NCBI GenBank assembly: GCA_947627215.1
Contig: CANQVD010000022.1
Location: 1-56,318, forward strand
Direction: 5' to 3'
Length of the DNA stretch: 56,318 nt
From: an uncultured Eisenbergiella sp.
GTDB taxonomy: Bacteria; Bacillota; Clostridia; Lachnospirales; Lachnospiraceae
Shown here: positions 4,677 to 22,580 of the stretch, piece by piece
Position numbering within the stretch: the first letter of the stretch is position 1
Layout: every line of letters starts with the position of its first letter
Program-made: the position numbers and the translations under genes
The notes under the pieces: model-generated
Databases searched by the model: none
Seen by the model: only the letters and a program-made list of their open reading frames with translations
What the model was told of the DNA's origin: nothing

Positions 4677-4724
4677 CTCTTTCACCTCCTTTCCTCCATA
4701 TGAATTTTCTGATATTGCGTTATA

Positions 4725-6077: not shown

Positions 6078-7205
6078 TCAGAAACGATATTGGATATTGG
6101 ATTTCGCCCTCTGCGAAGCGCCGTCATCCGAAGGCGTCTCCTTTTTGCGCGTTTCGGTTCCCGCCATTTTCCCCGCCGGTATGACAGGATCGCGCCGCGC
6201 GGATTCATAGGTTTCCATGGAAATATCCCCATTCGCATAAAGCTGCTGCAGCGCGCGGTCCATCAGAATATTTCCGATACTCCCCGTCGTCTGGATGCTG
6301 TTGTAGATCTGCGGGGTCTTGCCCTCACGGATCAGGTTGCGGATGGCTCCGTCCACCTTCATGACCTCGCAGGCCAGCACGCGCCCTTTGCCGGACTTCC
6401 TGGGAAGGAGCTGCTGGGAAAGGACGGCCTTTAAGGTCATGGAGAGCTGCAGCCGGATCTGCTGCTGACGCTCCGCCGGAAACACATCCACGATCCTGTC
6501 GATAGAATCCGCCGCGGAATTGGTGTGGACGGTGCCAAAGACCAGATGGCCCGTTTCCGCCGCGGTCAAAGCGGTTTCGATCGTGTCCAGGTCGCGCATT
6601 TCACCGACCAGGATCACGTCCGGATCCTCCCGCAGAGCGGCTCTGAGACCGGCGGAAAAGCTTTTGGTATCCTTGCCGATCTCCCTCTGGTTGATCACAC
6701 ATTTTTCCGGCGTATACACATACTCCACCGGATCCTCCAGGGTCAGGATATGCTTTGTCTGGGTCTGATTGATGTGATTGAGGATCGCGGCCAGCGTCGT
6801 GGATTTCCCGGAACCCGTTTCGCCCGTGATCAGCACGATCCCCTGATTGTACCAGGGAAACTCCGACGCCACGTTCGGCAGCCCCAGTTCGCTCATCATC
6901 GGGATCCTGTCGTTTAACAGACGGATCGCGGCGGAATAGTGCCCCTGCTGGGAAAAAATATTCAGTCGGCAGCGGATGCCGGCGATCGTCCTGGCCAGAT
7001 CCACCTCTCCCACTTCCACTAAGGTATCAAAAAAATCTCCCGCCAGTTCGCTGGCGTAAGCCATACAGTCGGCGTCCGTCAGGCAAAACTGCGCCGCGTC
7101 GCACAGACTTCCGTCTACGCGGTAGCGCGGATTCAAACCGCATACAAGATGAATGTCCGAGGCCCTCTGTTCATAAGCGCCCTGTACCAGTTCTGTTATC
7201 GTCAT
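6078..7205 (-). CDS. pilT: type IV pilus retraction ATPase PilT
   Basis: A 375-residue hexameric motor ATPase that disassembles pili and powers twitching. It has Walker A GETGSGKS at residues 128-135, Asp-box and Walker B (EDPDVILVGEMRD), the His-box region ending GTVHTNSA, and the PilT-specific AIRNLIRE motif near residue 285. The C-terminal tail is polar and variable. ATG at 7205 has GGGAGG upstream; it lies 13 nt after the PilB stop. Presence of a PilT next to PilB implies that the pili can retract. Confidence 0.95.
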   Translation of the reverse strand: MTITELVQGAYEQRASDIHLVCGLNPRYRVDGSLCDAAQFCLTDADCMAYASELAGDFFDTLVEVGEVDLARTIAGIRCRLNIFSQQGHYSAAIRLLNDRIPMMSELGLPNVASEFPWYNQGIVLITGETGSGKSTTLAAILNHINQTQTKHILTLEDPVEYVYTPEKCVINQREIGKDTKSFSAGLRAALREDPDVILVGEMRDLDTIETALTAAETGHLVFGTVHTNSAADSIDRIVDVFPAERQQQIRLQLSMTLKAVLSQQLLPRKSGKGRVLACEVMKVDGAIRNLIREGKTPQIYNSIQTTGSIGNILMDRALQQLYANGDISMETYESARRDPVIPAGKMAGTETRKKETPSDDGASQRAKSNIQYRF

Positions 7206-7218
7206 AAAATCCTCCCGG

Positions 7219-8916
7219 TCAGATCCCGATCACCCGCGTCACCTCTTCCGTCGTCGTAACGCCCTTCCGGATCAGTTCTCTGCAGTTTTCCATGATCGGT
7301 ATCAAATTGGCTCTTTCCACCGCCGCCTCCATCTCCCTGCGGTTCCCGCTGTGGATGGCCCGGCGCAGATCCGGCGTGATATTAAGGATCTCAAACGCGC
7401 CGATCCGGCCTCTGTAACCGGTATGGAAACAGTCATCGCAGCCTTCGCCCCGGTAAAAGACCTCGTCGCCTTCCGGGGCAAAGCCCATCAGCTTCCTTTC
7501 CTCCCGTTCGGGAACATATTTTTTGCGGCAGTGCGGACAGATCCGGCGCAAAAGGCGCTGAGAAACGATCCCCTTTACCGCTCCGGCGACCACATAGGGC
7601 TCCACGCCGATATCCATCAAACGGTCAATGGAAGATACCGCGTCGTTGGTATGAATGGTGCTCAGCACAAGATGACCTGTGATCGCGGCGCGCATGGCGA
7701 TCTCCGCCGTCTCGCCGTCGCGGATCTCGCCTACCGCGATGATATCCGGATCCTGGCGGAGTACCGCGCGAAGCGCGTTGGCAAAGGTCATGCCCACCCG
7801 TTCGTTGATCTGTACCTGGCACACCGAATCCATGTAATATTCCACCGGATCTTCCAGAGAAACCAGATTATACTGCTCGTTCTTGATATGGTCGATGATC
7901 GTATACATCGTGGAGGTTTTCCCGGAACCGGTGGGGCCCACCAGAAGGATCGCGCCTTCCCTGACGGAATGCAGCAGTTCCCGAAACCTTTCCAGATTCC
8001 TGCCCGACAGGCCGATGCCCTCCATCGAGATCAGCTCCGGGTTTTTCCGCAGCAGACGGATCACCATTTTTTCCCCGTAAACCGTCGGCAGCGTGGAAAT
8101 ACGCAGATCCATCGCTTCCTGGCGTACCGTCACATTGGCATGTCCGTCCTGGGGGACGTTGCGCTGCGCGATGTCCAGACGGGACATGATCTTCAAACGG
8201 GAAATCACGGAAGTTTCCAGTTCCTTTGGCACGGAAATGACCGACCGCAGCATCCCGTCGATCCTCATGCGGATCTCCATCTGATCCTCTCCCGGCTCCA
8301 GATGGATATCGCTGGCCTTCTCGGCATAGGCGCGTTCAATGATGGAATTGACCAGACGGATCGCCGGCGCCGTATCTCCGTCTTCCTCGTCCACAACGAT
8401 GCTTTCCGCCGTCTGAACCACGGGAAGGTTGTTCGCCTGGCCGTTCATCATGTCGCGGCGCATTTCCTCTATGGCCCGCATCGCGCCCTGATTGCTGTAC
8501 AGGTTTTGTACCGCCCGGCTGGCCGCCTCTTCCGTGGTGATCATCGGTACCACATGACGCCGGGTAGCCGCTTCCACTTCCCCGATGGCGACAAAGTTCA
8601 GCGGATCGGCCATTGCCAGATAGAGGTCCGACCGGGTGGCCCTGACCGGCACTACCTGATATTTCCTGGCGATGCTCTTTGGCAGGATACGGGCCATTTC
8701 CGACGGGATCTCAAAAGAATTCAGATCGATATATTCCACGCCGATCTGCGTCATCAGCGCATGGATCATCTGTACCTCCGTGATGATCCCGTTTTCGATC
8801 AAAACGGACCCCAGACGCTTGCCGCTGATCTTTTGCAGAAGCAGGGCTTCCTCCAGTTGTTTTTCCGTTATCGCTCCGCTCTTGACAAGCAGATCCCCTA
8901 AGCGTATGTATGTCAT
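7219..8916 (-). CDS. pilB: type IV pilus assembly ATPase PilB (GspE family)
   Basis: A 565-residue extension motor. The N-terminal MshEN/GSPII_E-N domain begins with RLGDLLVKSGAITEKQLEEA, followed by the ATPase with Walker A GPTGSGKT (about residues 325-335), Walker B DPDIIAVGEIRD, and a zinc-binding four-cysteine motif (CPHC near 457, CDDC near 493). I chose ATG 8916 because AGGGAG lies 8 nt upstream and the protein then starts like other PilB proteins. A second candidate ATG at 8964 overlaps the stop codon of the preceding minor pilin (TAATG) and would add 16 residues. Confidence 0.95.
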   Translation of the reverse strand: MTYIRLGDLLVKSGAITEKQLEEALLLQKISGKRLGSVLIENGIITEVQMIHALMTQIGVEYIDLNSFEIPSEMARILPKSIARKYQVVPVRATRSDLYLAMADPLNFVAIGEVEAATRRHVVPMITTEEAASRAVQNLYSNQGAMRAIEEMRRDMMNGQANNLPVVQTAESIVVDEEDGDTAPAIRLVNSIIERAYAEKASDIHLEPGEDQMEIRMRIDGMLRSVISVPKELETSVISRLKIMSRLDIAQRNVPQDGHANVTVRQEAMDLRISTLPTVYGEKMVIRLLRKNPELISMEGIGLSGRNLERFRELLHSVREGAILLVGPTGSGKTSTMYTIIDHIKNEQYNLVSLEDPVEYYMDSVCQVQINERVGMTFANALRAVLRQDPDIIAVGEIRDGETAEIAMRAAITGHLVLSTIHTNDAVSSIDRLMDIGVEPYVVAGAVKGIVSQRLLRRICPHCRKKYVPEREERKLMGFAPEGDEVFYRGEGCDDCFHTGYRGRIGAFEILNITPDLRRAIHSGNRREMEAAVERANLIPIMENCRELIRKGVTTTEEVTRVIGI

Positions 8917-8963
8917 TCCAAAAACTCCCTGATACTGTTGTCCCGATATCTCTGTCCGGATCA

Positions 8964-9494
8964 TTATGTCGGTCCCGCCGCCCCGGACGGCGCCGCGTTG
9001 ATGCAATGGACCTTAAAATCCTGCTGTACTTCTTTCGCGCCGCCGTCTATTTTTATCCCGAAGGAAAAAATTCCGGTATCCTCGTCATAGGAAATCTTTT
9101 CGGTAAATTCTACTCCATAGCAGCCGTCCCGGCCATATACCCCTTCGGGAAGGAGCATCAGGGGCGATCCGGAGACGTTGATCACAAGCCGGCCCTCCTG
9201 CGTATCGATCATGGCATACGGGCCGTATACCTCGCTCCAGTACTGCGTCATCGCTCCGTCGCCGTCCGTCCTGATATTGCGGGCATAGCGCAGCTCATCG
9301 ATCAGCCGCGCGGACGCCGTCGAAAGCAAAAGCTTCGACTCGGAATCGGAGAGCATCGTATGATAGGAATGCAGCGAAAGATCCAATCCCGTGTCCACGA
9401 TGACACTGAACAGAACCAAAATCCCGACTGCCGCCAGCAGCTCTACTAGCGTCGTACCGCGCCGGTCCTTCAATTTCCGGAAGAATCGCTTCAT
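8964..9494 (-). CDS. minor pilin-like protein (PulJ/GspJ type prepilin)
   Basis: A 176-residue prepilin-like protein. Leader residues 1-13 end in RRG; cleavage would give TTLVE with Glu+5, then a hydrophobic helix to about 35. The soluble part resembles minor pseudopilins of the J type in length and in the early ARLIDELRYARN helix, but the assignment to J is an inference from order and size. Its ATG overlaps the stop of the preceding gene by four bases (ATGA), so the minor pilins are translationally coupled. Minor pilins usually prime fibre assembly at the tip. Confidence 0.8.
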   Translation of the reverse strand: MKRFFRKLKDRRGTTLVELLAAVGILVLFSVIVDTGLDLSLHSYHTMLSDSESKLLLSTASARLIDELRYARNIRTDGDGAMTQYWSEVYGPYAMIDTQEGRLVINVSGSPLMLLPEGVYGRDGCYGVEFTEKISYDEDTGIFSFGIKIDGGAKEVQQDFKVHCINAAPSGAAGPT

Positions 9495-9958
9495 GGGCCG
9501 CCACCTCCTCCGGACGTTTTGGCCTTAAAGGAGATCACGCCGTCGCCGCCGTATATGTCGACAGTTACCTCCGTCTCAGGCGATTTCGGCGCGCCCGTCG
9601 CAGGATCGATCTCCTGAATCGTGATCTCCGCCGTCCGCTCCGCGCCGTATTCGTCTTCTGCAGGCGAGGTCTGTTCCTCCGCCTGGATGAGATGCTCGTA
9701 AAAGCTTTCGTCGCTGTCCTCCGCGCTCTCCCCGATGCGGACGGAGGTGATGATCAGCGACATCAACAGAGCCACGGAAAGGCTGCCGATCAGAGCGGAC
9801 GCCAGCACCTCGATCAGCGTCTCGCCGCCGCTGCTCTGCAGCTTGTTTTGCAGTTTTCTTTGCAGCCTACCTTGCGGCTCGCTTTGCAGTTTTTCTTGCG
9901 ACTTACCTTGCAGCTCGCTTTGCAGCCCTCTTTTCTGCCCTTCTTTGATCCGCCTCAT
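9491..9958 (-). CDS. minor pilin-like prepilin with repeat-bearing leader
   Basis: A 155-residue prepilin-like protein. The mature part starts after GG45 with ETLIEV (Glu+5), followed by a hydrophobic helix to about residue 72. The leader is 45 residues long and contains eight tetrapeptide repeats of the form (L/S/P)-Q-x-(E/K/R/S) at residues 12-43, encoded by 12-bp DNA repeats. Prepilin leaders are normally much shorter. The C-terminal domain is acidic and short. Its start overlaps the previous stop by four bases and its stop overlaps the next start. A pseudopilin role (I or V type) is likely; exact type unknown. Confidence 0.8.
   Translation of the reverse strand: MRRIKEGQKRGLQSELQGKSQEKLQSEPQGRLQRKLQNKLQSSGGETLIEVLASALIGSLSVALLMSLIITSVRIGESAEDSDESFYEHLIQAEEQTSPAEDEYGAERTAEITIQEIDPATGAPKSPETEVTVDIYGGDGVISFKAKTSGGGGGP
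9830..9925. repeat. eight 12-bp tandem repeats (TTGCAG-N6) in a prepilin leader
   Basis: TTGCAG or a close variant (CTGCAG, TTGCGG, TTGCGA) begins at 9836, 9848, 9860, 9872, 9884, 9896, 9908 and 9920, an exact 12-bp period. Because 12 is divisible by three, gain or loss of units would change leader length without a frameshift. Confidence 0.9.
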
Positions 9959-10794
9959 GTGCCGCCTCCGTTCTCCTCAGGCTCCAGTCTGACGATCTTG
10001 CTCAATTCCAACTGAAGGGGGGTGGTCGTTCTTACTTCTGAAACGTTTGTGGAGGGAGTCAGCATCTCGGTATGCTCAATAAAAGCGGGTTTTTCGCTGC
10101 CCTGTACCGTCAACTCCGCCTGCATTGCATAAGACGGATAGCCGTTCTTATAATAATCATCCGGGACCTTCTCAACAGACGCGGTGACGATCAGGCGGTA
10201 ATCATCCGCGATTCCGCCGCCCGTCCCAAGGCCGGGCGCCTCGATCTCCATTCTGATCTGAAAATCTTTCAGCTCCGGCAAACCCGTTTCATCCGCTGTT
10301 ATCAGGAAGGTGCGTTTGGATGCTATCCCTGCGCCGATCGTGTCGGGATCAGGATTTGTCTCGTCCTGCAGGGCCCATTGAAGATCCGGATCCGTATTGT
10401 TGTTTTTTTCCAGAACCAGTCTGGCAATATACCGCTGAAATAATGCGTCAAAAACATCCCGATAGGCCAGCTTGCCCATCAAACAGTCGAACTCCCCCTG
10501 CCGCGGCACAAAATAACGGGTTTTCATGGTTGAGGGAGCAGGCTCTGAACGCTCCAGCAACTGATAGCTTCCCTTATATTCCGCACTCACCAGATCGTCT
10601 GTCACCAGCCGCAGCGCAGAGGAAAGGGCCAGGTAAACCTGCTCCTCCTGCCGGTTGCTGCGGGCCTTTCCGGCGTTGGAAACCGCGGCCATCAGGACAG
10701 AAGCGCCCACCATCATACAGATCAGCAGAAGCAGCATCGCCAGCAGGATGGAAGCGCCTTTTTCACTTTTCAGTTTGCCTGTCAATCTTCTCAA
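9955..10794 (-). CDS. PilX/GspK-like minor pilin component
   Basis: A 279-residue protein with a short leader ending in EKG (residues 11-13), then ASILLAMLLLLICMM: a prepilin-like hydrophobic helix that lacks Glu+5, the mark of GspK/PilX-type tip subunits. The long soluble domain is rich in polar segments. I chose a TTG start at 10794: AGGAGG lies 7 nt upstream and the gene then begins 19 nt after the stop of the giant gene. An upstream ATG at 10878 would add 28 Arg-rich residues and overlap the giant gene by 65 nt with no equivalent site. The gene links the giant protein to the other minor pilins. Confidence 0.8.
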   Translation of the reverse strand: MRRLTGKLKSEKGASILLAMLLLLICMMVGASVLMAAVSNAGKARSNRQEEQVYLALSSALRLVTDDLVSAEYKGSYQLLERSEPAPSTMKTRYFVPRQGEFDCLMGKLAYRDVFDALFQRYIARLVLEKNNNTDPDLQWALQDETNPDPDTIGAGIASKRTFLITADETGLPELKDFQIRMEIEAPGLGTGGGIADDYRLIVTASVEKVPDDYYKNGYPSYAMQAELTVQGSEKPAFIEHTEMLTPSTNVSEVRTTTPLQLELSKIVRLEPEENGGGT

Positions 10795-10813
10795 GGCGCT
10801 CCCTCCTTTCCTT

Positions 10814-13800
10814 CTATTCCTCCGGCTCCTCTGACGTCTCCGTTGGAGGCGGCGTCTGATCAGGTTCCGCCGGCCCATGCTCCGGCTGAGACGGCGGAAC
10901 CTCCGAAGACTGCCGGGGCTCTGTTTCGGACTGTTCCGTTTCCGTTGGCTGGGTCGAATCGGTCCCGCTTTCGCTCTCCGTCCCGGCGTCGGGCGCCGTC
11001 CCGCTCTCCGTTGCCGTGTCGGTTTCCGTTTCGGTCTGCGTCTCGGTCTGCGTTTCGCTCCCGGTTTCGGTATCGCTCTCCGTTTCGGTCTGCGTCCCGC
11101 TCCCGGTTTCGCTTTCGCTCTCCGTCCCGGCGTCTGACACCGTCCCGCTCTCCGTTACCGTGTCGGTTTCTGTTTCGGTCTGTGTCCCGCTTCCGGTTTC
11201 CGTTTCACTCTCCGTCCCGGTTTCGGTTTCCGTCTCGGTTTCTGTTTCCGTCTCGCTCTCTGTCTCTGTTTCGGTTTCTGTTTCCGTCTCTTCCTCTTCC
11301 GAATCCCTTCCCACGCTCATGAGCGACATCTCATCCCCATATTTTTCCTGCAGTTTCTCGCAGAAAGCGGGAAGCAGTTCAATCGCGAGAGGGATTTCCT
11401 TATGATATTCTTTTTCATTTATTGTCACGGAAACGGTGACAGTGCCGTTCAGCCTGATGTTTTCTCCCTCGTTCTGATCGAAAAGAGTGTCATTCGACGG
11501 CGAAGCGGTCGGCTCCGAATTTGACGCTGACGGGGCTGATATCGTTTCCTGGCTGAACAGCGCCGCACCCGGCGCTGCTGACCGCGCAAGCTGATCCGCA
11601 CCCGTCTCCGTTTCATCCGAATTGCCGTCGTCGAAAATTTCAGGGCCCGAATTTGCACCGGGCTGAACTTCCGGCTGACTTTCGGGCTTGCCTTCCGAAC
11701 TCGATTCCATCTGGCTTTCTGAACTCGATTCCGTCTGTTCCTCCGAAGCCGAACCCGTCAGTTCCTGTTCGTCCGGTTCCTTCTGGCTTTGCATCAGAGT
11801 GTTCCCAGACGCCCCGGCGAGAATTGAGGGCCAGTCTTCTTCAAGCTTCTCCTGATTCAGCGTCAGCTTTACCTGGCTGGAAACAGGCGCAGGCTCAGGC
11901 GTCTCTTCCGATTCGTCTGCCGCCAGGGCCTCCGGCGCGCCATTCTCCAATACTTCCAGTTTCACATAATCGCTGATCTCACTGGAAAGCGACCAACTGA
12001 ATGTCCCCTCCTGTTCGCTGTCCAACAGACTTGCCGTAATCAGGGCTTCCGCTGATTGTTCCCTGTTCTCCGGATCAGCGCCGGCGTAAAGGGTGGCGGA
12101 ATTTGACTTCAATCCTTCCAGCTTAAACGGCTGATCCAGAACCTCGATCTGGCCGATCAGATTAACTACATGTTCGCACGCCTTATAGGTAAAGTGCAGC
12201 GGAATAGTAATACTCGTTTTACCCGCTTTCGATCCTCTCAGAGACAGCGAACCGTCGTTATTTTCCCGCAGTTCCACCACCTCAGGATTGCCCAGGATAA
12301 GCTGACCCCATGTGCAGCCGTTGGCCAACAGTCCGTCGTCCCCGCTGACCTTCACTTCCTCGCCATCGATCTGGAAACGGAACGCTTTCTCTACAAAATC
12401 CCCCATCGTTTTGAACGCAAGCGTCCGTTCTCCGCTTTCACCGCGATAAAACACGACCGGCTGAACTTCCCAAGTAAACGGCGCCAGAGTTACGTTCATG
12501 GTGCTGGTGTAATTGGTAAGTGTAATTTTGTGCTCATCGTCTTTTTGACCGTTCGGATAATAATCAAAGCCATAAGTCAGCGTAACGGCCGTGCTGACCT
12601 TCGAGCCCGATGTTCCGGCGTCGCCGGCCGTATCGTTCTCCAAAAGATTCCCCTGTACAGTCAGTTTCTTCTGAAGCGGCAAAGGTTCCTTTGTTTCTCC
12701 GGACGCTGCAGTCTCCTCCGCATAAACCGGCTCAATTGTGATAGAATCTAAATACTCCGGATCAAAAACAACCGATGTATCCGGCAGATCGACTATTTTT
12801 TCGGTTACAGCCCCGCCCAGCAGTTCGGGAGGTTCCGCAGTATTATAAGGGAACATACGGATTATGTTTTGGTCGTCCTCGTTTTCATAAAGGAATACCA
12901 GCGGCTCCCCTTCCCCGGCGGGAATCACTTTTTTCTTATTCTCCGTTCCCGTTCCGGGCGTCGTCGCCGTGCCGGGATTCTCTGCCTCTTCCTCCATTTC
13001 CACAGCGGGCACCAGATTGAGGCTGGCTGTGACATTGACGGTGATCTTCAGGCTTGTGAAAACCTGGTCGCCATCGGATTCTTTATAGCTGACCGTAACT
13101 TCCGCCTTTCCTGGCTTCACCCCGTTTAAAAGCAGTTCGACAGAATCCGGAAGGGATGATCCAATTGCATAGGTATCTTCTTCTGTTGTTTTATCGCCGT
13201 CCTGAACAACAAACTTCGCTTCAACTACTGCCCCGTCCGTCTCTGCGCTTTCTGATCCCTCAGGTTCTGTCGTTACGGAAACTGTCAGTTTTCCGCTTTT
13301 GCCCTCTTTCTTCAGAATATCAGAAAGCGTGATCTCGACTTTTCTCTGTCCGTACTTTATATTCGCCGGATCCTGCGGTTCACCGCCCTCTTCTGTTTCT
13401 ATCTCATAATTTCGGAAAAGATCGATATCCACCGGCTTATCGCCAAAGTCTTTCAGCTCCAATCCCGGCAAAGGCCAGTCTCCATAGTGAACATTCTTTG
13501 TTTCACCGTTATATTCCTGCGTCAGAATTGTCGGGAACGGATAGTCCATACCGCTCAGACTGCTATCGGAAGCAAAGGTGAATCGTCCGGGAACAGCATT
13601 GCCATTGACCGTATTGGAAACCGTGTCAAATTGTTTGTCTTCTTCTTCCGATGGATTAGACTGGTTCAGGCTCGTCAAGACATTTCCGTTGCTCAGTTCG
13701 TCATATGTAACACCTGTTACCCCTGTAACTTGTTCTTGATTACCGTCTTTCGGCTTGTTGTTCTCGTCGTTCTCGGCGTAAAACGGTTGTATATCTTTCA

Positions 13801-16800
13801 AATAAAAACAGTTTTTATAGGTTGAGTCTTTATGCCCAGCTAGATCTACTAACTCTCCTATCCCGCCAATATAATACAAGTTACTTTTGTACCCGTCAGT
13901 ACCAACCGGAATAGAAGCAGGAAGAACGACATAACTGTAACAATGAGAAATCGTATTTGTTGCCCCGTTACTATTACCTACGATGTTTCGACCTGCATAA
14001 CTGAGGGTTCTCATAAAACTTCCCCCAACAATTCCTCCAATATGAACCCTCGACGCTTTCGACAATATGTCCTGGTCCGTAATATACCCACCTGCATAAC
14101 ATTCTGATATCGACTGCTGACACGAGCCGGCAATACCTCCCACTCGAATATTTCTGGAATTGGATGAATATGTATACTTTAAACTGATATTGGTAACTGC
14201 CGTACACTCTGAAAGTTTCATATTGCAGATTCCAACTAAGCCGCCCACGCCGCCTCCGCCGTGACCGCAACTATCATGGGCATCAATAATATTATACCCT
14301 GCAATTGCACAGTTACTGATGGGTATCTGATCCACTTCATTTTCCTTTGACGTAGCTGCCAAACCGACAAGTCCTCCCATTGCATACCAGCCGGAGGAGC
14401 CATCTCCCGTAACAGTATTTAATCCGCTTTCGCTGTAAAGTATAATATTCTTCAATTCTGCATCTATCGTAACGCCAAATAATCCTGTTGTATTTACAGA
14501 ATTGCCCGTGCCATCTTTTGTTGACACAATATCTATATTCTTAATCTGATAAGAATCTCCATCATAACTGCCGCCGAACCAACCGGACAACTGGTTCGCA
14601 CCAGTTCCATCAGCACCTTTCTCATCATAAAAACCCGCTATGGGTTTATACGAATTTTTCTTTCCATCCAAATCATGACTTTGTTTCCAGAAATAATTAC
14701 GATATTTATAATCATTTCCTTCACTGTTACTATAACAAAGATATGGGAACTTCTTATTCAAATCGTTCGCAAATGTTGTGGGATATTCCGTATTTTTTTG
14801 TTCATAATTCCAGTTGATATATCGCAGTTGCTGAACCGAACGCACACCAAAAGGGAATTCCATGCCGCCCACATCCTGCTTTGTTCCTGTGGCAATTCCC
14901 TCTATATCCCTGCCATCCTCGGCTTTTGCTTCTACCAAAACAATCGATTCTGCAAAAAAGGGATTGATTGCAAACGTATATTGAGGTCCGTTTGACAGAG
15001 GCCCCAATTTCCAGGTGCAATAAGAAAAATCGCCCACTATCCTCAATTTATCGTTATCAGTTTTATACGCACAGATAAAATAACCCGGACTTATGGCGCT
15101 GATATAATCTGATACATCCTGACTATATCCCAGTTCACTATCAACCTCAGGACAATTCTCAGTCTCAAAAATACCACCCAAACCATACTCATAGTAATAT
15201 CCATACCCATATTCCTCAATCACTCCGCCGTCAGAATGCTCCCGGCACAGAGTATTGATCTCGCTCGTGGTATTATCATCCGTATTCACTGAAATCGCTT
15301 TGATATGATAGGCCTCATTGTCGCCTTTTACTTCCTTCTCCCAGTAAAAGACGCCCATTGAACCTAACTTGATCTCCACAGGCCAGTCGCCGTAATGCAC
15401 CCGATTTCCCTGCGCATCCGTCACTACCGCAGGATAAGGATATTTTTCCCCTGGAGCAGAATATTTCCCCGCACCCATGGCAAAGGAACCGCCCAACTGG
15501 CTGACGGTGGTCGGATCGGCCTCTCCGCGCATCTGCCGCACGTTATGCCCCTGGCTGCCTTCGTTCGGCGGATACTGTGCGCTGAAGGTTTCACCAAGGT
15601 AATCAAAATTCCCCCTGTCAAGGAAATAGCAGTCGCCTGTACTCCCCTTGCAGAAACCGTAATCCTCAGCGCCGCCGCTGACAGTCAGAGCCGTCGCCGC
15701 ATAGGAATTGCGGATCGCGCCGCTGTTCTGTCCGGCAAAACCGCCTGCGATCACATCGCCGTCATGGGATTTGGCGGCGTCGATATCACCCACCGCATAG
15801 CAGTCATAGATCGCCGCGCCGCCCAGGTTCTGGCCGACCAGACCGCCCAGATACGCGTTGGAATAGTTGGTATCTGCCTTCATGCTGTCCAGAACGGCGG
15901 AGGACTGGCGGATCGTCCCTGCATTCACGCCAACCAGACCGCCTGCGTACAGCGTGCTGTAACCGTAGGAAGTCATCTCATTCATACTGATATAGGCCAC
16001 GGCGCAGTTAGTGATGTCGCCGCCGTTGCCGCCCGCCAGCGTTCCCACATAGAGAGAAGCGCCCTCCGCAGCGCTGCCGGATATATCCAGAACCGCTCTG
16101 CCCGATTCATCGCCCTCCGGCACTCCGATGCCGAGGTAAACGGTATTGCGGATCGTACCGCTGTTATAACCGAAGAGGCCCACATAAGAACCCGCCTCTG
16201 TTTTGGGCCGTACATTGATAATGGTATGACATTCACCGTCATAAGTGTTGGTAAAAGCGTCTCCGGCATTTCTGCCGATCCCGTCCTGGGATACGGGCCC
16301 GCCGGACGCGTCAGCGAACAGATCATAGCCCGTATAGAGGGCATAATCCAGATCCAGCTCCTGCAGATAGGTGTACCGTTTGACACTCCCATAGTATTGC
16401 TTATACATGCTCAGATAATAGAGGTGACGCGGAGAACGAATCCTTACCCGCAGCCCGTTCGTGAGCAGATCCAACTCCCCGCTCTCACCCTCTCTGGGCA
16501 GCACTGTCGCGGCAAAATGCGGATTATAGTAGTAATCGCCGCTGATGGTAGAACTGCTTTGGGTCGTCACGGTCACCCTGATAGGGATATAAAAATTCTC
16601 CGCGGCGCCCTCCGGGTTAATCAGTTTTTTGTCTTCGTCATCAGGCAAATCCGCCAGATAATATGTCTTCTGTATTAAACCTGTCTCTCCGTTTTCTTTC
16701 TTTCCCTGGATGAGAAGCGTTATGGGATGAAGCTGATCTTTTTGATAAGATACTACATAGTTCGCTGTGCCATCCGGCAAACCGACCCAATAATTGATCG

Positions 16801-19162
16801 TCGTTGTCTCCGCTGCCACATCCTCCTCGGCCAGAATGACCGCATAGCCGTCGTTGTTTACCAGATTCGGATCGGCCAGAAGGGTATCGATACCACCGCC
16901 GTAAATGTGGCGGGATACGTCAACGCCCTCATAGGTTTCCCAATAGACCAGGCTCCCCTCCTGTACCTGGGCAGTCCAGTCCCCGTAATGCTCAAGCGTC
17001 GAAAGGGCGGGATAAGGATATCGGTCCAGAGCGGAATCCGTCAGCAGATTGTAAGGATGGCTCTCGTACACGTTTTTCTTTTCAAAAGCCGCACCCATAT
17101 CCTGATTCACAAGCTGCTCATAATCCAAGGACAGCGATTGCCACCATTTGCTGTCGTCGGCCGCTCCGCCGTTTACATAGGCGGAATACAGATAATAAAC
17201 ATTGACCATCCCGGTGCCGTCAGCGGTATCGGCCAGAGGATAACGCTTATCAAGGATATCCGAAATGTCCGTCTCACCCCCCAGATCAGGCAGGCCATAC
17301 CCCATCGCGCTGTAGCTGTTTTGGATCGACGCGCTCCCGCCGCCAGCGGTCAGACACAACCCTCCGAGGGTCATATTCCTATAGTCGGTAGAAAAAAAGC
17401 CGGCGGCATAGCAGTCCGAAACAGCCAGCGTCCCAGAAGATACGCCGACAAGACCGCCCATCTCTGCCCCTTCTCCAGCGCTCAGATAGCAGTCCGCGTA
17501 GCTTCCTGTTATGTTCAGTCTCCCGTTCGCTTTTCCGACCAGTCCGCCAGCCGCGCTTTTCCCATAGACCGTGGCCGCGGCAAAGCTTCCTTCGACAGAA
17601 ACCTGGCCCGTTACGCTGCCGATCAGCCCTCCGGCGGCATCGCCGCCGTGAACCTTAAAGTCATCGTAACTGTCAAATCTATAATTTTTTTCCGCGCCGG
17701 TGCTGCCCAGCAGATATTTCAGATCGGTATGGGCATCGGAATCCGGCTCCCAGTAAAACTGACAGTCGGTAATTTTCGCATTTGTCCCCAGGCTTGCGCA
17801 GAGGACTCCGGCCTCGCCCGTCGCCTTCACGGAGGCGTTGACCAGGCGGATCCCTTTCAGTTCTGTCAGGGCGAAATCGCCTGTTATCTCTCCGAACAGG
17901 CCTGCCGATTCTCCGCTCGCCCCGTATTTCTCAGCGCGTTCCGCCGGATTTATGTAGAGATTGCGAATACTGTGGTCACCGCCGTCATAAGAACTCAGAT
18001 ACCGGTTCTCGATCGGCACAAAACTGTAAAATTCGGACATCCCGCTGCTTTCCGCAATCGCAATGGCCGGATTCTCGATATCCTGTATCTGTATCGCCGC
18101 CGTCTGGGGCGGTCTGGCGGAGTCATCGCAGGAGAACTTCGGATGAAGATTCTGCAAATGACGCATATACATGATACTTGCGGTCGTATCCGTGGAAGAT
18201 TTGGCGAACAGGCTGTTATCCTGATTGGAAGCCGACGCGCCGTTGACCCGGCGTTCATCGCCCGTATAGCGCACCTCCGCCGTGATCGTAAAATCCTTTC
18301 CCGGCGCGGTGTTCCATCCGCTTCCCGGCCCCAGATCCTTAAACTGCTGTCCCTTTATAAGCGAATCCAGAAGATAAACGTCGGTATGGCTGATGAAGGT
18401 CGCGCCCTCGCGCCTACTCTCGGTCATGCGGTCCGTGCCCTTAAGGACATCGCTTAAGACCACCTTCTGTTCCCCGTAAGTCAGGGTGACGATCAACTCA
18501 ATATCGTCCGCCACAGAGGACAGCGACTGGGGAACCCACCAGTCCACCTGTGCCGTCAGCACGTCCGTATTCTGTATCGTAATGACCGGAACGCGCAGGG
18601 CCACCGTCCCGCCGACGGGCGAAGGGTCGCTGCCATAATAACCCACCATCGGTTTTAACCGCATGCGGCCTGACCGGCTCTCGCCCGCATGCTCCTCATA
18701 AAAGGAGGCGTCGAAGCTGTGTCCGAAAGCGGACTCTTCCACATAGAAAACATCCGTAACGCTGCCGCTTTCCGGCTCGTAGACCACATAAAAACTGCCC
18801 TGCCGGAGTCTGGGATCGATCGTTCCTTCCGGCAGGAGCTGCTCCATCTCCGGATCGCTGTCGGAGCGATAATAGTAAAAAATATCACCGTCCATAGCAA
18901 TCCTGTTGGCGCCGCCCTCATTCTCTGTCAGCTCCACCAGGCTTTCATTATTCTGCAGAAGCACAGCCCTGTTCTGCGCCGCAAGGTAGATCTCCCTGGC
19001 CGCATTGTCCAGCTCCGTGATCTTTAAATATTTCTGATAATAAATCACCGCCACCAGAGAAAGCGCCAACAGGATCACGATAACGGCGACCGTGATCAGC
19101 GCTTCCGGCAGCGTAAAACCGGACTGTTCTTTCTTTTTCTTTAGCAAAAGTCGTATATTCAC
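10814..19162 (-). CDS. giant prepilin-like surface protein with GLUG repeats (putative pilus adhesin)
   Basis: A 2782-residue protein, far larger than any pilin. Residues 1-15 form a basic leader ending in SG; cleavage by PilD would give FTLPE with Glu+5, followed by a hydrophobic helix to about 40 and an assembly-type helix to about 65. Three large modules follow, each with GLUG-type repeats (GGLVG...SYA pattern, beta-helix-like) and each ending in a YP-P...HYGDW motif near residues 720, 1257 and 1894. About 1900-2400 looks like Ig-like beta domains. From about 2400 it is acidic Ser/Thr/Glu/Pro-rich with TETE repeats at about 2624-2744. There is no LPXTG or other sortase signal. The start is a GTG (19162) chosen because it gives a normal prepilin leader and lies 34 nt after the predicted transcript start; an ATG at 19285 lies upstream of that promoter. 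Probable role: adhesin carried by the pilus. No frameshift is seen. Confidence 0.88.
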   Translation of the reverse strand: MNIRLLLKKKKEQSGFTLPEALITVAVIVILLALSLVAVIYYQKYLKITELDNAAREIYLAAQNRAVLLQNNESLVELTENEGGANRIAMDGDIFYYYRSDSDPEMEQLLPEGTIDPRLRQGSFYVVYEPESGSVTDVFYVEESAFGHSFDASFYEEHAGESRSGRMRLKPMVGYYGSDPSPVGGTVALRVPVITIQNTDVLTAQVDWWVPQSLSSVADDIELIVTLTYGEQKVVLSDVLKGTDRMTESRREGATFISHTDVYLLDSLIKGQQFKDLGPGSGWNTAPGKDFTITAEVRYTGDERRVNGASASNQDNSLFAKSSTDTTASIMYMRHLQNLHPKFSCDDSARPPQTAAIQIQDIENPAIAIAESSGMSEFYSFVPIENRYLSSYDGGDHSIRNLYINPAERAEKYGASGESAGLFGEITGDFALTELKGIRLVNASVKATGEAGVLCASLGTNAKITDCQFYWEPDSDAHTDLKYLLGSTGAEKNYRFDSYDDFKVHGGDAAGGLIGSVTGQVSVEGSFAAATVYGKSAAGGLVGKANGRLNITGSYADCYLSAGEGAEMGGLVGVSSGTLAVSDCYAAGFFSTDYRNMTLGGLCLTAGGGSASIQNSYSAMGYGLPDLGGETDISDILDKRYPLADTADGTGMVNVYYLYSAYVNGGAADDSKWWQSLSLDYEQLVNQDMGAAFEKKNVYESHPYNLLTDSALDRYPYPALSTLEHYGDWTAQVQEGSLVYWETYEGVDVSRHIYGGGIDTLLADPNLVNNDGYAVILAEEDVAAETTTINYWVGLPDGTANYVVSYQKDQLHPITLLIQGKKENGETGLIQKTYYLADLPDDEDKKLINPEGAAENFYIPIRVTVTTQSSSTISGDYYYNPHFAATVLPREGESGELDLLTNGLRVRIRSPRHLYYLSMYKQYYGSVKRYTYLQELDLDYALYTGYDLFADASGGPVSQDGIGRNAGDAFTNTYDGECHTIINVRPKTEAGSYVGLFGYNSGTIRNTVYLGIGVPEGDESGRAVLDISGSAAEGASLYVGTLAGGNGGDITNCAVAYISMNEMTSYGYSTLYAGGLVGVNAGTIRQSSAVLDSMKADTNYSNAYLGGLVGQNLGGAAIYDCYAVGDIDAAKSHDGDVIAGGFAGQNSGAIRNSYAATALTVSGGAEDYGFCKGSTGDCYFLDRGNFDYLGETFSAQYPPNEGSQGHNVRQMRGEADPTTVSQLGGSFAMGAGKYSAPGEKYPYPAVVTDAQGNRVHYGDWPVEIKLGSMGVFYWEKEVKGDNEAYHIKAISVNTDDNTTSEINTLCREHSDGGVIEEYGYGYYYEYGLGGIFETENCPEVDSELGYSQDVSDYISAISPGYFICAYKTDNDKLRIVGDFSYCTWKLGPLSNGPQYTFAINPFFAESIVLVEAKAEDGRDIEGIATGTKQDVGGMEFPFGVRSVQQLRYINWNYEQKNTEYPTTFANDLNKKFPYLCYSNSEGNDYKYRNYFWKQSHDLDGKKNSYKPIAGFYDEKGADGTGANQLSGWFGGSYDGDSYQIKNIDIVSTKDGTGNSVNTTGLFGVTIDAELKNIILYSESGLNTVTGDGSSGWYAMGGLVGLAATSKENEVDQIPISNCAIAGYNIIDAHDSCGHGGGGVGGLVGICNMKLSECTAVTNISLKYTYSSNSRNIRVGGIAGSCQQSISECYAGGYITDQDILSKASRVHIGGIVGGSFMRTLSYAGRNIVGNSNGATNTISHCYSYVVLPASIPVGTDGYKSNLYYIGGIGELVDLAGHKDSTYKNCFYLKDIQPFYAENDENNKPKDGNQEQVTGVTGVTYDELSNGNVLTSLNQSNPSEEEDKQFDTVSNTVNGNAVPGRFTFASDSSLSGMDYPFPTILTQEYNGETKNVHYGDWPLPGLELKDFGDKPVDIDLFRNYEIETEEGGEPQDPANIKYGQRKVEITLSDILKKEGKSGKLTVSVTTEPEGSESAETDGAVVEAKFVVQDGDKTTEEDTYAIGSSLPDSVELLLNGVKPGKAEVTVSYKESDGDQVFTSLKITVNVTASLNLVPAVEMEEEAENPGTATTPGTGTENKKKVIPAGEGEPLVFLYENEDDQNIIRMFPYNTAEPPELLGGAVTEKIVDLPDTSVVFDPEYLDSITIEPVYAEETAASGETKEPLPLQKKLTVQGNLLENDTAGDAGTSGSKVSTAVTLTYGFDYYPNGQKDDEHKITLTNYTSTMNVTLAPFTWEVQPVVFYRGESGERTLAFKTMGDFVEKAFRFQIDGEEVKVSGDDGLLANGCTWGQLILGNPEVVELRENNDGSLSLRGSKAGKTSITIPLHFTYKACEHVVNLIGQIEVLDQPFKLEGLKSNSATLYAGADPENREQSAEALITASLLDSEQEGTFSWSLSSEISDYVKLEVLENGAPEALAADESEETPEPAPVSSQVKLTLNQEKLEEDWPSILAGASGNTLMQSQKEPDEQELTGSASEEQTESSSESQMESSSEGKPESQPEVQPGANSGPEIFDDGNSDETETGADQLARSAAPGAALFSQETISAPSASNSEPTASPSNDTLFDQNEGENIRLNGTVTVSVTINEKEYHKEIPLAIELLPAFCEKLQEKYGDEMSLMSVGRDSEEEETETETETETESETETETETETETGTESETETGSGTQTETETDTVTESGTVSDAGTESESETGSGTQTETESDTETGSETQTETQTETETDTATESGTAPDAGTESESGTDSTQPTETEQSETEPRQSSEVPPSQPEHGPAEPDQTPPPTETSEEPEE
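10930..11300. repeat. hexamer-based tandem repeats encoding Thr/Glu/Ser tail
   Basis: Short repeats of the type (G/T)GTTTC and CGTCTC, with a larger duplicated unit of about 40 codons, encode the TETE-rich tail of the giant pilin-like protein. The 6-bp periodicity keeps frame when units are gained or lost. Confidence 0.8.
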
Positions 19163-19202
19163 TTCCCATACCCTTAGAAAATAAACAGAATATCCCAACT
19201 TT

Positions 19203-19231
19203 ATTTTATGTGGCGCTGGTAATTTTGTCAA
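19203..19231 (-). promoter_or_regulatory. promoter of the giant pilin-like gene
   Basis: TTGACA (19226-19231, perfect -35), 17-nt spacer, TAAAAT (19203-19208) on the minus strand. It starts directly after the T-run of the upstream terminator and about 41 nt before the GTG start codon. Confidence 0.85.
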
Positions 19232-19275
19232 CAAAAAAAAGAGCATCGCCGATCCATAAATCGTTCGATGCCCAG
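19232..19275 (-). terminator. rho-independent terminator after pilO
   Basis: On the minus strand GCATCG and CGATGC enclose an inner CGAT/ATCG pairing, followed by a run of eight T residues ending at the promoter of the giant gene. It lies within 10 nt of the PilO stop codon. Confidence 0.85.
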
Positions 19276-19281
19276 GTTTTG

Positions 19282-19908
19282 TCACTCCTGAGGTTGATAT
19301 TCAAAAAACAGCAGCGTCGCGGTCACGCGAATCGCGGGCTCATCCGTCTGCACGCTTTCCGTCCCGGAGGCGCTCGTCCGTCCGCCGGTCCACCACCCCA
19401 ATCCGCCAATGGTCAGGCCTCCCGTTTCCGTCACGTTGATACTCAGATCGTCAAACATACATCGGAAGGGAATATCGTGCAGCCGCTGCAGGGTTTCCTT
19501 CGCCGCCGCATAATTCGGCGCCGTAAACTGCATGGAAATACTGCGCCGCATGACGCCGGATTCCTGCGCGCCTGCCACGGAAGCGAAATCCAGCGAATAA
19601 TCCTGGGTATCCGCCAGGATACTGTTCAGGGCAAACATCACATTCTGGCTGTTATCGTAGGGGGCCATTCCCACCGGATCCGGATCCTTTTCAAAGATCT
19701 GTGCCAGTTCCCGCTCCATCTCCTTCTTGCGCGCGATGCGAAGCTGATCCATTTCGATCTCATCCTGCGTACTCAGAATCTGCCCCTCCAGGCCGTCCCT
19801 GCGCTCCTGCATCGGCACGAAGAACCACAGATAGTAAGCGGAGACCAGAACCAGGACGAGAAGGATGATCAGAAGCACGATCTCACGGCTTGAAAGCTTT
19901 CGCCTCAT
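19282..19908 (-). CDS. pilO: type IV pilus alignment protein PilO-like
   Basis: A 208-residue bitopic protein: a short cytoplasmic N-terminus, one membrane helix at about 9-29, a coiled coil (about 35-70) with many charged residues, and a C-terminal ferredoxin-like domain. This is the usual plan of PilO, which pairs with PilN to form the inner-membrane alignment complex. Sequence similarity in this family is low, so the call rests on architecture and on its position after PilM and PilN. The ATG overlaps the PilN stop by four bases. Confidence 0.82.
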   Translation of the reverse strand: MRRKLSSREIVLLIILLVLVLVSAYYLWFFVPMQERRDGLEGQILSTQDEIEMDQLRIARKKEMERELAQIFEKDPDPVGMAPYDNSQNVMFALNSILADTQDYSLDFASVAGAQESGVMRRSISMQFTAPNYAAAKETLQRLHDIPFRCMFDDLSINVTETGGLTIGGLGWWTGGRTSASGTESVQTDEPAIRVTATLLFFEYQPQE

Positions 19909-20540
19909 GACTGTCCCCCTCCTTCCTGTTCTTTGCTGAGCGTGATCTGGATCGTAGCCTTTACCAGACTTCCCCGATCCTCTTCCGTGCCGGGAACCGG
20001 CGTCTGCGCGCCCTCCTGTCCCGACTGCGTCCCTTCCTCGGTATTGGCGGTATTGACCACGGTGGACGCTACGATCGGCGACTCTTCAAGCTCCCTGACC
20101 AGTTCCGCGGTTTCCCGCAGCGTCACCCCGGAAAAGGATACCTTTACATATCCGTCGCTGATCGAGATCGATTCGATCCCCGCATGGGGACGGATCACTT
20201 CATCCAGCAGTCCGAGAATCTCCATCCGGTTCGTCTGAGACAATTCCTCCTGCGTGGCCGAATAGATCTGATACTGATGCAGGACCTCATCATAGTCGGT
20301 CAGCATCGCCTCATAGCTTTCCTTCTCCGCCTCCGCCCGCGCCAGTTGTGCTTCCTTATCCGCAACATCCGCCAGAATGTCATAAATGAACCATTTGAAA
20401 AAACCGATGCCAAGCGTCACCGCAAACAGAACATACAGCATTATCGTCGCCGGCACGGTGGTACGATCCGGTTTGAAATACAGGTTCATCGTCCTCTTTT
20501 CCGGATAGGCCCCGCCTTTCTTTCCCCTGCCCTTAGCCAT
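19905..20540 (-). CDS. pilN: type IV pilus assembly protein PilN-like
   Basis: A 211-residue bitopic membrane protein. The cytoplasmic N-terminus contains MNLYFKPDR, the equivalent of the conserved PilN INLLP segment that docks in PilM, followed by a membrane helix at about 33-53, a coiled coil (about 58-100) and a small C-terminal domain. The tail after residue 165 is Gly/Gln/Thr-rich. It begins 1 nt from the PilM stop region, with GGAGGG upstream, and is coupled to PilO. Confidence 0.85.
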   Translation of the reverse strand: MAKGRGKKGGAYPEKRTMNLYFKPDRTTVPATIMLYVLFAVTLGIGFFKWFIYDILADVADKEAQLARAEAEKESYEAMLTDYDEVLHQYQIYSATQEELSQTNRMEILGLLDEVIRPHAGIESISISDGYVKVSFSGVTLRETAELVRELEESPIVASTVVNTANTEEGTQSGQEGAQTPVPGTEEDRGSLVKATIQITLSKEQEGGGQS

Positions 20541-20541
20541 T

Positions 20542-21552
20542 TTATCTGCCCTCCGTCTGTGCCAGCGCCACGCTCAGCGCCAGAATTCCCCTGGCCGCGC
20601 TCTCCGGTTTCAGATCATACCCGTCAAACAGTTCTGTGACCGGCAGTATCGCCATTCCGAGCATTTCTTCAATTCTCCCGCAAAGCTGCGGGATGGAAGA
20701 ACCGCCTCCCGTCAGGTAAACGCCGGAAAGCTGGCTGTCACGGTAATTAAAGCGGTAGAAATTTACGACCTTCAAAATCTCTACGGCGATATTGCTGTAG
20801 ACAGCTTCGCTTTCCGCAGAATCCAGCACGTTCTGATAGTTGTTGAATTTATAGGAGGCCGCGAGGAAAGGATCCTCATTGACCAGATCCGCAATGACCA
20901 GATCCAGTTGTCTGCAGCCAAGATTGATCTGGCGCATGGCCTGAATCCGGTCCTTCTTCACAATCGTGATCAGGACAGACTCCCAGCCGAGATTGATAAA
21001 ACAGTATTCCTGCGGGCCGTCCGGGTGTTTCTGCCGATGCAGCGACGTCATCCGGATCAGCGCCATCTCGCCGGGCAGCAGCGTGCGCAGTTTCAGTCCC
21101 GCGCCGGCAAACAGCCTGACATACTGCAGGATACGGTCTTTGGCGGCGGCCGCCGCGATCAGCGTCATCTGCTCTTCTCCGCCCCTGTCGTCCTCGGACG
21201 GTTCGCACATCGCATAATCACAAAAAAACCGGTCCGAGTCCCCCTGGATGAACTCACTGAATTCATAGGGAAGATTCAGCATAAGCTGCTCCGCTGACAT
21301 TTTGGGCAGCGTCACAGTGCGGCAGATTACCTGGCGCGCAGGCATAACCAGCGCGCACTCCCCTTTGGGGATCTTATGCTTTTTCCGTTCCTCCCGCAGA
21401 AATCCCGAAAAGGAATTGGGCATTGTGATCTCGCCTTCCTGCATCATATTGTCAGGCATCCGGATCTCAAATACCTCCGCCTTATCCCCGGAAACGGCCG
21501 CGACCTTCACGCTGCTGTTGCCGATGTCAAATCCAAGTCTGGTCTTCCCCAT
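20542..21552 (-). CDS. pilM: type IV pilus assembly actin-like ATPase PilM
   Basis: A 336-residue actin/FtsA-fold cytoplasmic protein. The phosphate-1 motif GFDIGNSSVKVAAV is at residues 7-20, and an ADENOSINE-type loop YLTGGGSSIPQL occurs near 275. It is of normal PilM length. PilM binds PilN and links the motors to the alignment complex. ATG at 21552 has AGGAGG upstream; the gene lies 21 nt after pilD and directly before pilN. Confidence 0.92.
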   Translation of the reverse strand: MGKTRLGFDIGNSSVKVAAVSGDKAEVFEIRMPDNMMQEGEITMPNSFSGFLREERKKHKIPKGECALVMPARQVICRTVTLPKMSAEQLMLNLPYEFSEFIQGDSDRFFCDYAMCEPSEDDRGGEEQMTLIAAAAAKDRILQYVRLFAGAGLKLRTLLPGEMALIRMTSLHRQKHPDGPQEYCFINLGWESVLITIVKKDRIQAMRQINLGCRQLDLVIADLVNEDPFLAASYKFNNYQNVLDSAESEAVYSNIAVEILKVVNFYRFNYRDSQLSGVYLTGGGSSIPQLCGRIEEMLGMAILPVTELFDGYDLKPESAARGILALSVALAQTEGR

Positions 21553-21573
21553 AAAAACCTCCTGCTCGTCTCT

Positions 21574-22371
21574 CTATAAAAGTCCCAGATACCAATCGAT
21601 CAACGGCCGCCCGAAGAGCACCACAAGCCCCGCGGCCATCGCCAGATAAGGGCCGAAGGGAAATTCCGGGGATTTTTTCCCCCCTTTGCCCGTATTGCGC
21701 AGAACGCTCCCCAAAATTCCCAGGATACAGGAAACAAGGAGCAGCAGGACCATCTCGGCCCAGTCGAAATACAGTCCAAGCACAAAGATCAGCTTGATAT
21801 CGCCGCCTCCCATCGTTTCCCTGCCTAACAGACGGTCCATCCCGAGCACAAGCAAAAGAAGCAGGCCTGAGATCACCAGAGCGCCGACCAGATACCCCGG
21901 CAGTTGCCCTCTCAGGGTCCTGGTGATCGCAAGGAAAACCAACCGGTTCACGGCCCCGGCCGCCAGAAGAAAATCCGGCAGTATCCGCTGAAAATGATCG
22001 ATGAGACTCAATAAAAGCAGCAGCGAGCCAAAGATCAGCCACTGGGGCAAAGAAAAGGAAACATCAAATCTGACAAACAGCGCGGCAAACATCACGGCGC
22101 CCGCCAGTTCGGCGATTAACGCGTCCGCCGGTATCTTTGCCTTACAGTAACGGCATCTGCCGCCCGAAAAAAGGTAACTGAACACCGGCACCAGATCCGG
22201 CGCACCCAGCACATGTCCGCACGACGCGCAATGGGAACGTCCCTTCCACGGGCTTTCCCCATGCGCCCTGCGCCAGGCCACGCAGTCCAGAAAGCTGCCC
22301 GTGACGGCTCCAAGCGCACCGGACAGGCACACAAGATATACGGTTAGAAAATCGATATGTACATGCGACAT
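21574..22371 (-). CDS. pilD: prepilin peptidase PilD (A24 family)
   Basis: A 265-residue polytopic aspartic protease that cleaves prepilin leaders and often methylates the new N-terminus. The cytoplasmic zinc-binding pair CASCGH and CRYCKA lies at about residues 47-75; the first active-site Asp is in the segment LIDHFQRILPD and the second in GGGDIKL. Seven to eight hydrophobic helices are visible. ATG at 22371 was chosen because GGGGGGAT precedes it and it lies downstream of the promoter at 22411-22439. It would process all prepilins of this locus, including the giant protein. Confidence 0.93.
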   Translation of the reverse strand: MSHVHIDFLTVYLVCLSGALGAVTGSFLDCVAWRRAHGESPWKGRSHCASCGHVLGAPDLVPVFSYLFSGGRCRYCKAKIPADALIAELAGAVMFAALFVRFDVSFSLPQWLIFGSLLLLLSLIDHFQRILPDFLLAAGAVNRLVFLAITRTLRGQLPGYLVGALVISGLLLLLVLGMDRLLGRETMGGGDIKLIFVLGLYFDWAEMVLLLLVSCILGILGSVLRNTGKGGKKSPEFPFGPYLAMAAGLVVLFGRPLIDWYLGLL

Positions 22372-22410
22372 TCCGATCCCCCCCGGAGTCAAAGATGATA
22401 AATTAAAATC

Positions 22411-22439
22411 ATTATACCGTCTAACGGCAAAACATACAA
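22411..22439 (-). promoter_or_regulatory. promoter of the pilD-M-N-O operon
   Basis: TTGTAT (22434-22439), 17-nt spacer, perfect TATAAT (22411-22416) on the minus strand, about 40 nt before the pilD start codon. A run of T residues on the same strand at about 22442-22449 precedes it. Confidence 0.75.
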
Positions 22440-22580
22440 GCAAAAAAAAGGCTTTTTCCCCGGGATAAACTGGATAAACTGCTGCTATTCACGGTCTAAA
22501 TAAAAATGAATACGCCAAACCGGCCGGATGGACACAGACGGTTGTCCTGTTTTTGCGTCAGATTATCTGATAAACAATGC

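Follow-up and report, generated by a model that had tools for sequence, protein, structure and literature searches.

Pilins in which additional domains are grafted onto a pilin module have been described in large numbers: a survey of these modular pilins reports more than 1,200 proteins in 264 architectures, and the most extreme multi-domain case that it cites is an 860-residue protein (PMC8179133). Its architectures include IPR012902-IPR011493, there assigned to M26 peptidases (PMC8179133). A tip complex composed of modular pilins has been reported for a monoderm; according to the same report, monoderms lack PilC/PilY1 (PMC9934059). The tip complex has been described in a review as capped by a subunit without Glu5 (PMC10191384). 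Another review describes the binding component of clostridial and streptococcal pili as not known and draws attention to large modular minor pilins (PMC6916266).

Here we analyze a pilus locus in which one gene encodes a protein more than ten times longer than the usual pilus subunit, consisting of a pilin head and a chain of rod-like blocks. Because the head looks like that of an ordinary pilin, the blocks are rod-like and similar proteins occur in many relatives, we think it probable that the protein serves as a long adhesive arm close to the tip of the pilus.

The locus and the giant gene

The window, a stretch of 56,318 nucleotides from an uncultured Eisenbergiella sp., is one whole contig from a 4.0 Mb draft genome in 108 contigs. 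The pilus genes lie on one strand in the order pilD, pilM, pilN-like, pilO-like, giant, K-like, I-like, J-like, pilB, pilT, pilC and two ordinary pilins, with the following features:

21574..22443, minus strand, pilD, prepilin peptidase (Pfam)
20542..21552, minus strand, pilM (family matches)
19905..20540, minus strand, pilN-like gene (weak Pfam match to PilN, E 0.0087; position)
19282..19908, minus strand, pilO-like gene (weak Pfam match to T2SSM, E 0.0043; position)
19241..19273, minus strand, terminator-like hairpin with a trailing U run, located between pilO and the giant (z -2.93; 1 of 200 shuffles folds as well)
19203..19231, minus strand, promoter-like site TTGACA-17-TAAAAT, 11 of 12 matches (best of 21 in 2800-22700)
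10814..19162, minus strand, giant gene with GTG start, putative modular pilin (2782 aa)
9955..10878, minus strand, K-like (GspK-like) minor pilin without Glu+5, G↓ASILL (family matches, leader inspection)
9491..9958, minus strand, I-like minor pilin, G↓ETLIE (leader inspection)
8964..9494, minus strand, J-like minor pilin, G↓TTLVE (Pfam, leader inspection)
7219..9006, minus strand, pilB, extension ATPase (Pfam)
6078..7205, minus strand, pilT, retraction ATPase (T2SSE family; named by order and similarity)
4853..6055, minus strand, pilC, platform protein (Pfam)
4221..4685, minus strand, ordinary-size pilin (Pfam, family matches)
3182..3637, minus strand, ordinary-size pilin (Pfam, family matches)

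A preliminary description of this DNA had placed the giant among pilD-M-N-O and minor pilin genes, and that setting is borne out, with pilN and pilO recognized by weak Pfam matches. Its coordinates and length for the giant are also correct: the gene is a single intact frame of 2782 codons from the GTG, with zero internal stops, and the open frame read without regard to a start codon spans 10814-19285. The 21 promoter-like sites in the scanned 20 kb are only a slight excess over the 14.7 (sd 4.0) in shuffles, and the hairpin is not among the sites listed by that scan.

The N terminus of the giant carries a class III signal, as the preliminary description had recognized. A charged leader ending in Gly (SG↓FTLPE) is followed by Glu+5 and a hydrophobic stretch predicted to be helical, and the Pfam N_methyl model scores 19.6 bits, just below its cut-off of 21.2. 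Other family matches are weak (PRK10506, E 0.00098; ComGD, E 0.0012). At the other end, a regular-expression search of the last 60 residues for LPxTG-like motifs was negative and the last 45 contain no long hydrophobic run, in keeping with the earlier statement that a sortase signal is absent; the combination that marks sortase-anchored adhesins, an LPxTG-type motif with a C-terminal membrane segment, is not found in this protein. The giant is acidic, with about -8.7 net charges per 100 residues. Its Thr/Glu-rich tail, likewise seen before, is a degenerate repeat tract with periods of 6-144 bp. The MSCRAMM adhesins SdrC and ClfA were rejected as relatives, their NCBIfam matches falling on this low-complexity tail and far under cut-off.

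Several features of the neighboring genes were also recorded. In the K-like minor pilin the leader is long and rich in Arg; with translation from the first ATG, the ORF of this pilin would share 65 bases with the end of the giant. The unusually long Gln/Lys-rich leader of the I-like minor pilin comes from a 36-bp tandem repeat at 9837-9925. Near the pilus locus, a gene at 1216-2202 on the minus strand encodes an APH-family phosphotransferase (Pfam E 2.6e-19).

Pilin module and architecture of the putative arm

Within the giant, the following parts can be distinguished:

19118..19162, minus strand, prepilin leader, residues 1-15 (predicted cleavage after Gly15; Gly-1 and Glu+5 invariant in 35 aligned rows)
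18623..19117, minus strand, pilin module, residues 16 to about 180, ending just past a VGYYG motif (alignment, models, bare homologues)
18173..18607, minus strand, beta-rich domain, residues 186-330 (model)
16970..18172, minus strand, GLUG-type unit 1, residues 331-731, with a solenoid modelled at 390-624 (profile, model, Foldseek)
15377..16435, minus strand, GLUG-type unit 2, residues 910-1262 (profile)
13787..15226, minus strand, atypical codon usage, residues 1313-1792, GC3 about 0.35-0.41 (scan; 0 of 500 shuffles as low)
13469..14902, minus strand, GLUG-type unit 3, residues 1421-1898 (profile)
11303..13468, minus strand, C-terminal region, residues 1899-2620 (blastp)
10817..11302, minus strand, Thr/Glu-rich tail, residues 2621-2782 (composition, repeat tract)

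The pilin module of about 180 residues defines a family. Compared with solved structures, the module profile hits pilin chains at their N-terminal helix (best E 3.8e-12). A separate model of the module, built with 35 sequences (mean pLDDT 80.0), contains a helix and strands. The boundary of the module is marked by homologues that consist of the bare module: one of 191 aa from another family, in the gene order H-K-I-J, ends 10 residues past a GYYG-type motif, and one of 198 aa, near I- and J-like genes, ends 13 residues past it. A third short homologue has 338 aa, and the 20 kb available at its locus contain no pilus gene. In the giant, the pilin module is followed by an extra non-pilin module, the arrangement by which modular pilins are recognized.

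Immediately upstream of the bare 191-aa H-like pilin lies a gene (L142:4834-7110) for a 758-aa protein with F5/8 type C domains. This protein is without solenoid units, but a split arrangement could employ a separate binding protein of this type.

A model of residues 1-760 of the giant (24 sequences, mean pLDDT 70.8, with 654-760 at low confidence) predicts a helix at 18-71 followed by a beta sheet, with a beta domain near 186-330 and residues 390-624 coiled into a regular solenoid. In a Foldseek search at E<=0.001, the model gave five matches, all to IgA1 proteases (E 3.2e-6 to 1.6e-4; query TM-scores 0.25-0.27). A unit profile seeded with 8 proteins and iterated on the same protein set matches 29 of 36 giants before iteration and all 36 after it. 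It finds three copies in the window protein, and HYGDW lies near the end of each. Relatives of 730 and 843 aa stop at HYGDW and have two partial profile matches each, which we read as one unit. Residues 1901-2650 gave nothing better than E 0.045 in a blastp comparison with the 35 other giants.

The domains named in the preliminary description fared differently. The GLUG assignment stands (Pfam GLUG, 21.5 bits against a cut-off of 20.5; we take IPR011493 to be the InterPro entry for GLUG), but the Ig-like domains do not, the sole Pfam trace being a sub-threshold match at residues 2330-2361 in the numbering of the giant (P0001). In 14 homologues Pfam sees little besides N_methyl and an occasional GLUG or Flg_new, and in neither these nor the window protein was a DNA- or sugar-binding domain recognized; no ligand-binding domain was recognized either.

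Distribution among relatives

A search with residues 1-487 matched 4 of 41 genomes, namely its own and three more: a congener, a member of its family and a member of a different family. Every match is in a long frame, and the order giant, K, I, J occurs in two of the three non-self genomes. The module alone, searched in 397 genomes of the family (E<=1e-12), matches 65 of them at 81 places; since the other 332 have no match, the trait is widespread but patchy. At 45 of the 81 places the full module is covered (at least 200 of 237 positions), and here the open frame has a median of 2674 aa, reaching at least 600 aa in 43 cases and at least 2000 aa in 29; the two exceptions below 600 are frames of 200 and 340 aa. 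Of the 36 partial matches, 23 are to ordinary pilins with frames of at most 350 aa, whereas the other 13 fall in frames that start at 1893 aa. In a survey of 391 genomes across the class (E<=1e-18), 11 match, five from the same family and six from four other families.

Loci were also collected by a PilM search of genome contigs, which found 294 relatives and from which 80 loci were kept, some of the records being from genomes already in our numbered set. Of these 80 loci, 33 encode a module homologue whose frame reaches 500 aa or more (E<=1e-15), and none was seen within the flank, short in many cases, of the other 47. Named isolates have homologues, for example Emergencia timonensis (1405 aa), Eubacterium pyruvativorans (1193 aa), Clostridium sp. 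MCC353 (2655 aa) and [Clostridium] asparagiforme DSM 15981, with 2562 aa in a complete chromosome.

The longest relative, a prepilin-type protein of 7662 residues beside pilT, pilB and pilD, was read over two adjoining stretches (L124:1578-20000 and L125:1-4566, G207:C19). Its last 1999 residues end in NLPC_P60 (E 3.1e-15) and Hydrolase_2 (E 1.1e-13) domains; hydrolase domains were found in one of the 13 members of that domain scan. In another genome (G167, joined stretch L012 and L034, 18278-20518), a 746-aa J-like minor pilin shares a cassette with a 2156-aa giant and is perhaps a second modular subunit of one tip set. A frame of at least 2666 aa directly after a pilO (L010:1-7999, minus strand) is without a prepilin motif and continues past the edge of the contig; the part that was read finishes in GGA-type repeats.

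Partner genes and a proposed H position

The partner genes of the giant resemble the I-J-K part of the H-I-J-K tip complex. Glu+5 is present in 0 of 42 K-like, 45 of 48 I-like and 55 of 58 J-like partners, counts for which the cleavage site was set by a simple script that misplaced a few and in which some I- and J-like proteins belong to a second pilus lineage. We picked 20 giants by hand from the family survey (20 regions, 19 genomes): one or more K-, I- or J-like genes lie on the same strand within 4 kb of 18 of them, and machinery genes accompany 11. In the larger set, which comprises 61 homologues in frames of 500 aa or more (many of their loci PilM-derived or cut at an edge), 28 have all three K-, I- and J-like genes within 4 kb, 13 have one or two and 20 have none. 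Where at least 4 kb is available on both sides (27 homologues), all three are present in 18, one in 2 and none in 7; for four of the seven, such genes occur at a greater distance within the locus, and in the other three none were seen. As to whether the homologues lie beside pilus genes, the arrangement is conserved in relatives, with machinery genes near 44 of the 61, but is not invariable, as the 338-aa form shows.

An H subunit would be encoded together with I, J and a K that is without Glu+5, and this is what we see in the window and in most but not all relatives. Since the giant has Glu+5 and the K-like protein does not, the giant would occupy the H place below the cap and not the very top. 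The preliminary description had proposed a tip protein replacing PilY1; the very top would instead fall to the K-like protein, and a position near the tip may follow from the H place. As a Foldseek search with the module model returned no PDB chain at E<=0.001 and gave no confirmation by fold, the H assignment draws on gene order, the Glu+5 pattern and weak family matches.

Mosaic composition

Codon usage varies along the giant, with GC3 of 0.35-0.47 at residues 1301-2000 versus 0.51-0.73 elsewhere in the gene and 0.63-0.77 in ten neighboring genes. When 35 other giants were ranked by blastp bit score, the congener came 1st for the pilin module, 5th for the beta domain, 4th for unit 1, 11th for unit 2 and 7th for unit 3, with uniformly weak scores for the beta domain and a near tie for unit 1. 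Proteins from other genera come ahead of it for units 2 and 3: L137, L133 and L089, from loci of 40-44% G+C, and L118, from one of 50%, the congener's own locus having 55% G+C. As units 2 and 3 share only 25-35% identity with those of other giants, these data support a mosaic history and name no donor.

Residues 1293-1901 matched only their own genome among 299 genomes of the family (E<=1e-20), a weak negative because blastp among the giants in hand does find the third units of L133, L089 and L118 (28-30% identity to unit 3, E 1.6e-46 or better). Codon usage and ranking together suggest that unit 3 is of foreign origin.

Discussion

The intact frame with its prepilin signature, the surrounding pilus locus, the conserved module with co-located partners, the unit architecture and the mosaic composition are direct observations, and on balance they make it rather probable that the giant is a modular minor pilin in the H place, with an adhesive arm that sits close to the tip of a pilus able to retract. 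Such a role would entail cleavage, incorporation into the pilus, tip proximity and adhesion. PilD would cut the leader after Gly15, and the long N-terminal helix would hold the protein in the membrane until PilB and PilC polymerize it. The K-like subunit without Glu+5 may cap the pilus, with I and J next and the giant linking the tip to a shaft of ordinary pilins. The beta domain, the three GLUG-type solenoid units and the acidic tail could then form a long arm that binds a surface or partner cell; if it does, retraction by PilT could pull on it. Units that are gained, lost and exchanged between species would allow the pilus to stick to different things.

How else might such a protein be used? 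The prepilin helix could serve solely as a membrane anchor, the giant then being a cell-surface fibre that passes through the wall outside pili. Since there is neither a sortase motif nor a C-terminal anchor, the helix is the only visible anchor, and the gene has its own promoter-like site with a terminator-like hairpin ahead. However, Gly-1 and Glu+5 are invariant (35 of 35 rows) and K-, I- and J-like genes and machinery are co-located in most loci with full context, which leaves this explanation unlikely. It has also to be asked if the pilus is a capture device, with the solenoid arm taking DNA or sugars for uptake or feeding in place of cell adhesion. The ComZ beta-solenoid module has been linked to DNA, with capture proposed (PMC8179133), and a solenoid is predicted here. 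We consider this improbable, since the acidity of the window protein makes it poorly suited to DNA, and the domain searches above recognized no DNA- or sugar-binding domain.

Help in crossing or remodelling peptidoglycan is suggested by the cell-wall hydrolase domains that end the 7662-aa relative and by a hydrolase tied to pilus extrusion in S. sanguinis (PMC13192262). With such domains in a single one of 13 scanned members, and in neither the window protein nor the 14 homologues, we judge this very improbable for the giant. Short homologues (frames of 200 and 340 aa at full-module places and two further frames of about 190 aa in another family) might be taken to mean that the giant is an assembly-error fusion, or the decayed form of a short pilin with a separate giant. 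The preliminary description had proposed a search for such split genes; beside the four short homologues examined, two of them on short contigs, no separate giant was seen, and the nearest thing to an ORF with solenoid units was an E 0.013 match in an 817-aa frame. The absence of a split partner, the long frames at 43 of 45 full-module places and the 2562-aa homologue in a complete chromosome record rule out an assembly or annotation fusion, and we give next to no credence to this family of explanations as a whole.

If the giant is indeed an H-place subunit, a broader proposal can be made, which we advance tentatively as somewhat short of an even prospect. Lachnospiraceae and certain other Clostridia may have turned the H subunit of their tip complex into a giant exchangeable arm (frames of about 630 to 7662 aa), the monoderm answer to PilY1, built of chained GLUG solenoids and equipped in one lineage or more with peptidoglycan hydrolases. 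Such proteins would rank with the largest known pilins and be largely missed by domain-database surveys. PilFind used a length limit under 350 aa (PMC3244431), and pilin searches that set a length limit or need a second known domain would miss most giants. A conserved pilin module, a defined graft point and swappable arms offer a testable answer on the binding component of these pili. Also to be explained is how export and polymerization proceed for chains that reach 7662 residues.

Comparison with known systems

The preliminary description regarded the protein as unlike anything known and as a candidate undescribed system. That view does not hold, as modular pilins with grafted domains have already been described (PMC8179133); with modular pilins known (Raynaud 2021), the giant is an outsized variant that Pfam hardly sees, and no new type of system need be assumed. 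Our additions are the scale and a conserved module with a graft point in the putative H place, little seen by Pfam. Among the titles and abstract openings listed by our searches of open-licence papers, none describes giant pilins of this kind, and the supplement of the modular pilin survey may list some (PMC8179133).

PilC/PilY1 is similarly very large, tip-associated and endowed with a variable adhesive part (PMC8179133, PMC9934059), but PilY1 is not a pilin, whereas the giant is prepilin-type. The PilY1 beta-propeller domain (PF05567) has no Pfam match in the giant, and a search of its own genome, the one genome searched, did not find PilY1, the control likewise matching nowhere. A second pilus lineage among the relatives (L025:13054-19089, L026:2150-7444, L028:2673-8723) is marked by a long PilM and by several prepilin genes, behind which lies the gene of a separate protein of 1764-2016 aa; this protein is without a prepilin motif, matches DUF5057 and is a possible PilY1 stand-in.

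The M26 IgA1 protease beta-solenoids provide the best structural matches of the model and share the GLUG motif. The catalytic domain of M26 IgA proteases carries HExxH; the window protein has neither that motif nor a Pfam M26 match, so it was not classed as such a protease. ComZ likewise has a solenoid on a minor pilin (PMC8179133).

The H-I-J-K set of type IVa pili and type II secretion corresponds in having four minor pilin genes together, with a K-like protein without Glu+5. In known systems H is of ordinary size, whereas here it would bear a giant arm, and no H fold match was obtained. The likeness to PilB and PilC of S. sanguinis extends to the prepilin N terminus, the extra module after the pilin module, the monoderm host and a set of minor pilins that form a tip complex there and would do so here; an adhesive role has been shown for the S. 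sanguinis system (PMC8179133, PMC9934059). There, however, PilB is a 50.5 kDa protein with a vWA module and PilC has a lectin module (PMC8179133, PMC9934059); the giant has 2782 aa and three GLUG-type units and adjoins K-, I- and J-like genes.
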